Positions 30,101-33,100 of a DNA stretch of 64,000 bases are shown piece after piece. Each line of letters opens with the position of its first letter. Position 1 is the stretch's first letter. Under the pieces are notes generated by a model. That model made no database searches and was not told the DNA's origin. It was given only the letters and a program-made list of their open reading frames with translations. Position numbers and translations under genes: made by a program. Source of the stretch: Bedellia somnulentella (taxonomy: Eukaryota > Arthropoda > Insecta > Lepidoptera > Bedelliidae); the NCBI GenBank assembly GCA_963576735.1, contig OY755172.1, forward strand, positions 2,542,001-2,606,000. Reading direction: 5' to 3'.

Positions 30101-33100
30101 CTTGTTTAATATTATGTACCTCGAGCTGTCGATTGCACGAGACGTACGCCAGTCTACTTTGTATATCCGGGAGGTTAGGAACTTTAACCGGCGTTGTGAA
30201 CGGGTTCCATCTGGGAAATAAATAAGATGTTATTTAATGAAAAAATATTACTACATTTTCACAACTACAACGGCGTTGTCATTAATCGAAGAAGAATTTT
30301 TGGACTTGAGGAAGAACATGGTGAATCCGTTAATTAATTTTATATAGTGCTAGGGAAATTACTCTTTGATAGCTCATCACGTCAGCGAGTGGATCTCAGT
30401 AAAACCCGAAGGAAATAGGAATTAGTCTGAGATATCCGTTAGCGCATATATTCATTATATTGTGTACATCCGCTGTTCTGCGACAGTTTTTTCTTACACT
30501 CCGCCATCTTTAATGAGTTCATGAAACGTTATCAAAATTACATACATACATACATATACTCACGGGTATAAATCCCTAGAAGGGGTAGCCAGAGCTTCGG
30601 AATTATAAATTCCTCAGCCACTTTTGGAAGTTGCGTGGGGAAAAGTTGGTGAAATAAAGGTTGTTGGTGATGGGACTCCAACCGCATCGCCCAAAAATCC
30701 CTCAAAAGCCCCAATACCATCAGTCGCCTCGTACGTACACCCACCGGAAGAAAAGGAGTAGTGCTATTCTAAACCACTACACAACTATCATCATATTTAG
30801 TTCAAAATTACTATCTAAAATAATACTAGACTATCAATATTCAACTCACCGTTTCCAAAGCAGCCACCATCCGGACAAGTCATCGCCGTAATTGGTCAAG
30901 TCCGTGTCGTCCTGCGAGCCCACGTCGATGGCGAGTATGTGTTTCGCTCCAAACGAACGCATCACGTCAGCTGAAAGTAGTTTTTATAAGCTTGTAATAA
31001 GATTCAGATTAATTTGCATTGTCATAGCTAAATGTCTATAATTTTGAGGTACTGAGTAGGAAAACTGATTTTAGAGTTAATATTGATGACATAACATTAG
31101 ACATGTGAATTATCAATAGCTTCGAAACTGAATATTTATATTTCTGGAAGTAGGGAGGGTAAAATTTAGAAGCTAATGGGATTGCAACCACATTTTGCAG
31201 CAATCTCTTCAAAAGTTCAAGGGTCCCTTAGTCGCCTTATACCGCCCATGAGATGTGGAAGAAAGAAACTATTTTTGATGTCATGATCTGAATTTAATAC
31301 ATCCAATAAAACTTACCCGGTACATTATTAGTATAACAACCATCGAGAAGCAAATGGCCATCAGTGGTATCGCAAATCGGTGGAAATATACCAGCGACAC
31401 TCATCGAAGCACGGCAGTACCGCCATAACATACCTGTGCGAGGGAGACGATAAAACACGCTGCTATTAGAACGAGACAGATATACGTTTGTCTGTCTGCC
31501 TTCTGACTTTCACAGCGGTTTGGCAGTTTTATCGAATCCCGACATTTGCTTTCGGGGCTTTACTTACCATTAAATTTGTGAGTGTAAATCTGTTTCAATT
31601 GAAAAGGTGCAATAGTAAGATGCATGTGTTGTGAGTATTAGATAGATTCAATTGAAAATACTAGCCCGAAGAGATGCTGCAAGCAAGACCGATAGAATCA
31701 TTTCAAAACGTTATCATTCATTGAAGTTGCAATGTAAATGCATTACATATCATGACTGACTTATATACAACAAAAAACATATTTACACTCAACAACGTAT
31801 CGTCGAAGCGTCCAGCGATGCTATTGGCTAAATGGTGACGCACACACGCGACGGCGCGTTGTGATTGGTTTACCTGGTAGGTTGTTGACGTAACCGCCGT
31901 CCAATAGGAGGTGGCCGTCTACGGGGTCGCAAAGAGGCGGCATATAACCGCTCAGAGACATCGACGCGCGAATGTAACGCCATAGAGAACCTGCGGCGCG
32001 ATATTGCAACTATAAGATCTTCAACTAACTTATGTCACCCTGGTACTAGGGCCTATAGTCCCTATATAGGACTAGGAGCGATAGCTTCGACAATAAGATT
32101 TTCAACTAACTTATTTCACCCTGGCACTAGGGCCTATAGTCCCTATATAGGACTAGGAGCGATAGCTTCGATAATAAGACCTTCAACTAACTCATGTCAC
32201 CCTGGTACCAGGTACAACACAATCCATGGAAAGGAAATAATCGCGAGAAAATTGCTTTACATAGCGGTAAACTAGGACCATCGAATTGAAAGAAATGTTT
32301 TAAGTAATTTATTGTTTGGAATTTGAAAAATAATATAATAAAATGACTATTTAAATAAAATACATGCATAGTAAGCGCACAAATAACCATAACCAAGATT
32401 TTAATGAAAAGATTATGGATCCCTCTCCAAATAAAATAGGTGTAATTTAATGAATATGAAACATAAAGAAACTGTTTGACTTACACTGAAAGATGTAAAC
32501 TAGAGCCTGGGATTGGAAAATGATATGATTATCTATTTTAACTCTAGTCACGAGACATTTTTCTAATCATTTATATCTAAATCTAAAATTTAATATCCAG
32601 CAAATTTTATTGTAACACTAAAATAAAAATATTATGTATCGCCATTATTGTACGACGAACTGAATTTAAAAAAGGTAACTGTTAACAGAAATATTTGACA
32701 AAAATAACACGACTGAACAATAGGCTATTTGACTGTTATAAGATTATACATTTCTTTTATTTCATCAGTCTTAATATTTTTTCTTAGAGCGATTGGTAAT
32801 AATGCGAGATAAAAATATTGCATTATTTAACCAAAATCCGTCTTCTAAAATAGGTTTTTTTGATGCAACTGTCACGTGACTATAAAAGATCGTAATTGGC
32901 TATTTCTATAATGACGTAAATTGCGCACAGACTGTGTATCGCTTCGCTTATTGGTGTATAATGCGGAATTGACGTCATATGTGCCACAGCCGCCATATTA
33001 CTTAAAGTCCCGTTTTCGCGGTACATTTGAATATTGCATTTTCTTTTTAGATTTTTTAATAAAATAGCTAAAATAAAGACAGAAAAGTATTATATTAGGG

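Follow-up and report, generated by a model that had tools for sequence, protein, structure and literature searches.

Two versions of the catalytic-aspartate exon in sws of Bedellia somnulentella, probably used as alternatives

The window analysed here, 64,000 nucleotides of contig OY755172.1 from the moth Bedellia somnulentella (assembly GCA_963576735.1, positions 2,542,001 to 2,606,000), holds a nearly complete lepidopteran sws, the insect PNPLA6/neuropathy target esterase (NTE) phospholipase gene, and the catalytic-Asp exon of this gene is present in two homologous versions, A and B (Table 1). It is likely, with a probability of about 0.7, that these are a genuine tandem-duplicated symmetrical exon pair and that the usual outcome in Lepidoptera is one exon or the other, giving enzymes of equal length. 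If either exon is chosen, the resulting enzymes would share the nucleophile Ser and everything else and would swap 37 internal residues, namely the stretch before the second active-site loop together with the catalytic-Asp hairpin, which would read Asp-Gly-Gly (DGG) in one form and Asp-Gly-Cys (DGC) in the other. Such a swap would replace the stretch that brings the Asp to the Ser and leave the nucleophile and glycine-rich parts unchanged. Organophosphate-induced delayed neuropathy has NTE as its target, and NTE is also a disease gene.

The pair had been proposed in a sequence-only reading of the window as two intact exons of 117 nt, both phase 1 to 1 and with good splice sites, and reading the minus strand and splicing the exons in a script bore this out. 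The motifs were as that reading gave them (WRY.RASMS in both, SLSGYMPP against SVAGIFPP, and DGG against DGC), as was its estimate of about 12 differing residues: the exons agree at 28 of 40 residues and at 69 of 117 nucleotides. Divergence between the copies, a computation it had suggested, gave a nonsynonymous value (dN) of 0.29-0.33 with a saturated synonymous value (dS). Each exon is preceded by CAG, with GTAAAC following A and GTAAGT following B, and either can be spliced in phase between the upstream exon, which ends at 35136 in phase 1, and the downstream exon, which starts at 30970. No stop interrupts the joined exons, whether A, B, both or neither is spliced in, and the distance from Ser to Asp is 120 residues with A, 120 with B, and 120 and 159 when both are included. 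The two exons are thus adjacent, homologous, equal in length and phase, and supplied with their own splice sites, which are the structural features of mutually exclusive exons.

A query made of B and the downstream exon found three matches at E <= 0.001 in the whole 549-Mb assembly (B, A at E = 6e-13, and the downstream exon), and the pair is therefore neither a chance likeness nor part of a many-copy family. Run permissively with 73 segments, tblastn gave no convincing third copy in the window among the 12 best other matches listed, the best of which (E = 0.008) has an internal stop.

The use of the two exons was followed in three protein searches from which the best 120 matches each (of 1477, 1693 and 2689) were taken, giving 243 distinct proteins, all classified by their Asp segments. 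Because the second query was the DGC segment itself, which left DGG-only vertebrates unable to rank, and because the database is clustered, with representatives that may favour long isoforms, the segment counts are not frequencies. The best matches to the single-form protein are lepidopteran neuropathy target esterase sws entries (among the best 120 of 1477). Eight pairs of annotated isoforms were picked by hand and compared, and four of these (Anticarsia X1/X2, Colias croceus X1/X2, Nymphalis io X1/X2 and Pararge X7/X8) are equal in length and identical outside this same 37-residue stretch; the other four (Vanessa, Anticarsia X5/X6 and two from Pieris) differ elsewhere too or by an insertion. 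As predicted proteins, then, A and B are already alternatives in public lepidopteran annotation. Models with the DGC segment alone come from eight Lepidoptera species, two sand flies and a beetle (12 entries), and the comparison with other insects that the sequence-only reading had called for found the paired segment in protein models of Lepidoptera and of other arthropods.

The protein segment of exon A was found identically in 63 of the 70 DGG segments counted, and exon B is identical at 33-35 of 39 residues to each of 12 other Lepidoptera compared. Judged by these comparisons, exon B is under constraint across Lepidoptera; stops in the copy of related species, which had been named as a sign against the proposal, were not found in those 12, in all of which B is intact. 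According to a review (PMC9025805), which leaves the site of difference unstated, the two Drosophila isoforms are both 1425 aa long, which is what a swapped exon would give. Drosophila is absent among the best 120 of 2689 matches to a tandem Glossina query, and this absence weakly suggests that tandem models are rare there.

Several points weigh against a choice between exons as the usual outcome. Nothing in the sequence opposes the joining of A to B, as the intron between them is 440 nt long, the join is in frame, and the introns showed no clear docking-selector pairing. In Pieris brassicae the only difference between X5 and X1 is 39 added residues, which is double inclusion, and models with both exons are found in Pieris brassicae, Melitaea, Choristoneura and Epargyreus (8 entries, 4 species) as well as in 28 entries from other arthropods. 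On the Pfam patatin profile (PF01734, cut-off 27.7 bits) it is the double form that scores highest, at 116 bits compared with 102.7 for the A form and 94.1 for the B form. AlphaFold models of a DGC-only beetle protein and a tandem eel protein score under 50 in the predicted local distance difference test (pLDDT) across almost the whole exon, from shallow alignments of 25 and 21 sequences, and are too poor there for judging the pocket, and annotation models may join exons without transcript backing. The kept frame, the Pieris pair and the profile score might instead mean that both exons are normally kept, with two Asp hairpins in tandem, and that single-exon forms are minor skipping products. 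The 36 arthropod DGG-DGC and 124 other DGC-DGG tandem proteins among those listed, and the spacing of exactly 39 residues in 157 of 162 two-segment proteins parsed, are in keeping with this. The named Lepidoptera among the listed matches, on the other hand, comprise 63 DGG-only, 9 DGC-only and 8 tandem entries (3 further DGG-only entries are nameless), in counts biased by ranking and clustering, and we consider double inclusion unlikely to be the main outcome.

Under the requirement of one exon per mRNA, the annotation models offer four species with single-exon isoform pairs and four with double inclusion. The claim that A and B are mutually exclusive finds support for Lepidoptera in the sense that they are alternatives, and no support as strict exclusivity, the frame permitting both. 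We infer that a choice of one exon or the other is the main outcome in cells, and that both forms are active.

Any such choice is not enforced by reading frame or by intron length. Competing intron pairing was considered as a device for exclusivity and did not clearly surpass shuffled sequence: the best energies of the three intron pairs were -31.2, -32.8 and -32.1 kcal/mol compared with -36.7, -31.3 and -33.9 kcal/mol for the best of eight mononucleotide shuffles per intron pair (the 3145-nt upstream intron being represented by its last 1.2 kb). The one pair to go slightly beyond its shuffles is that of the A-B intron and the downstream intron. Exclusivity, if real, must therefore rest on trans-acting control or on splice-site competition. 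The acceptor of A has a pyrimidine fraction of 0.53 over -20 to -4, among the poorest of 16 scored and level with two others, while that of B, at 0.76, is among the richest; the scores of exons further off than the near neighbours of A and B are approximate. With this contrast between the acceptors, A could be the regulated exon. The branch-point region of A falls in or beside an 81-bp tandem repeat, and the idea that this repeat is a transposon was dropped, only one genomic place having been reported for it.

Either single form matches the patatin profile from position 1 to 189 of 191, and with both exons skipped the match ends at 119. The columns that differ by type are 13, 14, 16 and 17 (just before the PP), 30, 33 (after the Asp-Gly) and 38. 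The classic patatin motif has Gly or Ala after the Asp-Gly, and the Cys of exon B raises the question of whether B is instead a regulatory decoy with little or no catalysis, whose choice or addition would turn the esterase off and leave the cAMP-domain and PKA-binding roles in place. A decoy would be in keeping with the frequency of this Cys in the second copy across phyla and with a score for B that is 8.6 bits below that of A; yet B keeps the Asp, the spacing, the preceding helix motif and both prolines, none of which a dead copy would need, and we regard a decoy as improbable. Because the Asp, the spacing and the scaffold are kept in B, a retuned pocket is judged more likely than a dead enzyme, and we infer that exchanging A for B would alter the acyl pocket and the fit of inhibitors.

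Across animals, the 243 proteins comprise 124 with DGC-DGG, 66 with DGG only, 36 with DGG-DGC, 12 with DGC only (all insects), 2 with DGG-DGA, 1 with DGG-DGV, 1 springtail protein with a broken first segment followed by DGV, and 1 sturgeon protein with DGC-DGG-DGG. By their source names all 36 of the DGG-DGC proteins are from arthropods (insects, a tick, a spider and a barnacle), and none of the 124 DGC-DGG proteins is; these come from vertebrates (including hagfish, marsupials, platypus and three placentals), amphioxus, the rotifer Adineta and the nematode Trichinella, and P0178, for one, reads DGC and then DGG. In these protein models the DGG/DGC pair is widespread in Bilateria, and the models there mostly include both copies. 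A second segment with DGA or DGV in place of DGC was seen in P0042 (Strigamia), P0239 (Notodromas), P0027 (Cimex) and P0085 (Orchesella), the myriapod and the ostracod being DGG-DGA and the bed bug DGG-DGV. The Cys after Asp-Gly is therefore, as far as these models go, not universal in the second segment of arthropods. The three consecutive Asp segments of P0121 (Acipenser sinensis) stand in a model that its source flags as unverified.

In about 17 vertebrate models GK or GN replaces AD after the DGG segment. These residues correspond to a phase-1 G followed by GTAA, so translation in these models apparently runs on into an intron placed and phased as in the window, which suggests that vertebrates have the same phase-1 boundaries as the window exons. 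Among the five tandem proteins with odd spacing, the insert begins with G in a rattlesnake and a carp relative, as phase-1 read-through would give, and does not in a weevil, a louse and a bonefish. Vertebrates with DGC only were at one point suspected and then rejected, since a His-requiring pattern had missed the second segment in many fish and bird proteins.

It could be argued that the DGC exon exists in predictions only, as a relic that is never expressed, given that some models (bat, mole-rat and desman) resemble unaided predictions, with read-through after the segment. A relic would decay, though, and the DGC segment is intact with few changes in the 12 other Lepidoptera; the same holds separately for vertebrates from sharks to birds, where the core YLPPLCDPKD and DGCYVNNVP of the vertebrate segments listed is nearly unchanged; the DGC exon is also present in named isoforms, and a relic seems very improbable. 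The segments in the bat, mole-rat and desman models, intact in spite of the read-through that these contain, suggest that some placentals keep the DGC exon, although the models themselves look unsupported by transcripts.

The published human enzyme is numbered in two ways, with Ser966, Asp1086 and a C domain ending at 1327 in PMC6995513 and with Ser1014, Asp1134 and a longest isoform of 1375 aa in PMC9025805; both numberings leave 361 residues after the Ser and a Ser-Asp spacing of 120. Tandem models of platypus, opossum and koala have 399, 399 and 400 residues after the Ser, which is 38-39 more than in the human enzyme; other tandem vertebrates have 397-414, and the read-through mole-rat and desman models 437 and 502. 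Being about 39 residues short of the tandem models, the published human form most likely holds a single Asp segment, which also speaks against double inclusion as the normal outcome. That segment is presumably the DGG version.

Whether the pair arose once was approached with a tree built on 39 columns from 73 chosen segments, 62 of them different. One branch (support 94/91, not starred) has all DGC-type segments to one side, and forcing the arthropod DGG and DGC segments together costs 8.9 log-likelihood units and is not rejected (p-AU 0.197). Raw identities of arthropod DGC segments are 0.68 to other DGC segments, 0.70 to arthropod DGG and 0.69 to other DGG segments, and as such favour neither a single origin nor an arthropod-only duplication. 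In a chosen set of 73 segments, Leu13 is found in 35 of 35 DGG-type and 0 of 36 DGC-type segments, and Val38 in 30 of 36 DGC-type and 0 of 35 DGG-type; residue 33 separates the types by definition. These shared columns of the DGC type (no Leu at 13, Cys at 33, and Val at 38 in most) point to one origin, and the opposite order of the two types in arthropods and in other animals points to convergence or to a lost third copy. Convergence is a serious option, given that a study of human tandem-exon events (PMC9741552) found 7 of 42 sharing ancestry with fly and judged the rest convergent.

The sws gene lies on the minus strand, with motif-bearing exons, picked by eye, spread between about 53.6 and about 22 kb. 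A protein hand-joined from the window exons has three stretches of PF00027 (cNMP-binding, 138.9 bits) and PF24179 (NTE_Ploop, NTE P-loop-like, 235.1 bits) in Pfam, so that the cyclic-nucleotide-binding and P-loop-like domains stand in one protein with a patatin domain that has the glycine-rich motif, GXSXG and the Asp, as in PNPLA6/7 (NTE/SWS). Elsewhere in the gene a 158-bp unit is repeated in 2.3 copies at 100% identity (51608-51964), holding most of an upstream cNMP-domain exon (NVYVVQTGRVNVYIT...) and its donor, and is either a very recent tandem duplication or an assembly artefact. Another sws exon (...SELAKLPEGLFNAIKLRFPVVVTRLINLLGHRILG) has been duplicated in part at 39583-39884; its two copies are 188 bp apart and share 91% identity over 114 nt. 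A 1206-codon open frame with a reverse transcriptase (PF00078) lies between sws exons at 25411-29028 on the minus strand, and a shorter minus-strand frame at 50263-51576, which has no Pfam match, looks by eye like its C-terminal part.

Table 1. Features of sws around the paired exons, in window coordinates
Feature	Position	Strand	Remarks
Exon A, catalytic-Asp exon, DGG version	31874..31990	-	GSLWRYIRASMSLSGYMPPLCDPVDGHLLLDGGYVNNLP; 117 nt, phase 1-1, AG/GT ends
Exon B, homologous DGC version	31317..31433	-	GMLWRYCRASMSVAGIFPPICDTTDGHLLLDGCYTNNVP; 117 nt, phase 1-1, AG/GT ends
A-B intron, 440 nt	31434..31873	-	pairing with flanking introns not clearly beyond shuffles
Upstream constant exon	35136..35322	-	phase 1 end, ...SSCMRVHRHG
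Downstream constant exon	30850..30970	-	ADVMRSFGAKHILAIDVGSQ...
Nucleophile exon, motif GVSIG	36092..36211	-	Ser-to-Asp 120 (A or B); 120 and 159 (both)
Glycine-rich (oxyanion-hole) exon, motif GGGGARG, patatin domain	37161..37316	-	
81-bp tandem repeat, 2.5 copies	32012..32212	-	ends about 20 nt upstream of A

The lepidopteran pair as such is already annotated, and the interesting part is the broader bilaterian second catalytic-Asp exon with its swapped order. Among the papers searched no description of the DGG/DGC pair was found, which does not establish its absence from print. The string PNPLA is absent from the main text of PMC9741552 and PMC4465641, the gene terms have no match in PMC5740500, PMC3228551 and PMC3303723, and no exon pair is described in passages of PMC13224342, PMC2768749, PMC6852622 and PMC5704489. 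A further reading, less likely than not, is that the pair dates from the bilaterian ancestor (or arose twice and converged on the same Cys), that its order was swapped in arthropods, and that it still acts as an active-site splice switch in vertebrates including mammals. Skipping, swapping or doubling of the exon would then set which substrates NTE prefers and how sensitive it is to organophosphates, and the human form that has been studied would be one of several. If a conserved second catalytic-Asp exon is real, studies of the enzyme and its inhibitors in a single form miss part of the activity, and the reversed order between arthropods and other animals makes a sharp case for asking whether duplicated exons of one gene are inherited or convergent.

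Comparison with known systems places the window gene with PNPLA6/NTE and Drosophila SWS, which have the same cNMP-binding, NTE P-loop-like and patatin domains, GXSXG, and an Asp 120 residues on (Ser1014/Asp1134 in the 1375-aa human form, PMC9025805); the published human form has one Asp segment by its length, whereas the window gene offers two. With an 80-aa query that includes exon A, the bacterial patatin-like PlpD (PDB 5fqu) matches the Asp segment and the strand after it (E = 4e-9); it has a single such segment in the match and, being bacterial, has no alternative exon. Tandem duplicated exon substitutions and mutually exclusive homologous exons are often very old and often convergent between human and fly (PMC9741552, PMC4465641). 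The NTE exon differs in that it holds the catalytic Asp, in that joining both copies keeps the frame and is widely annotated, and in that the order of the pair in arthropods is not that of other Bilateria.
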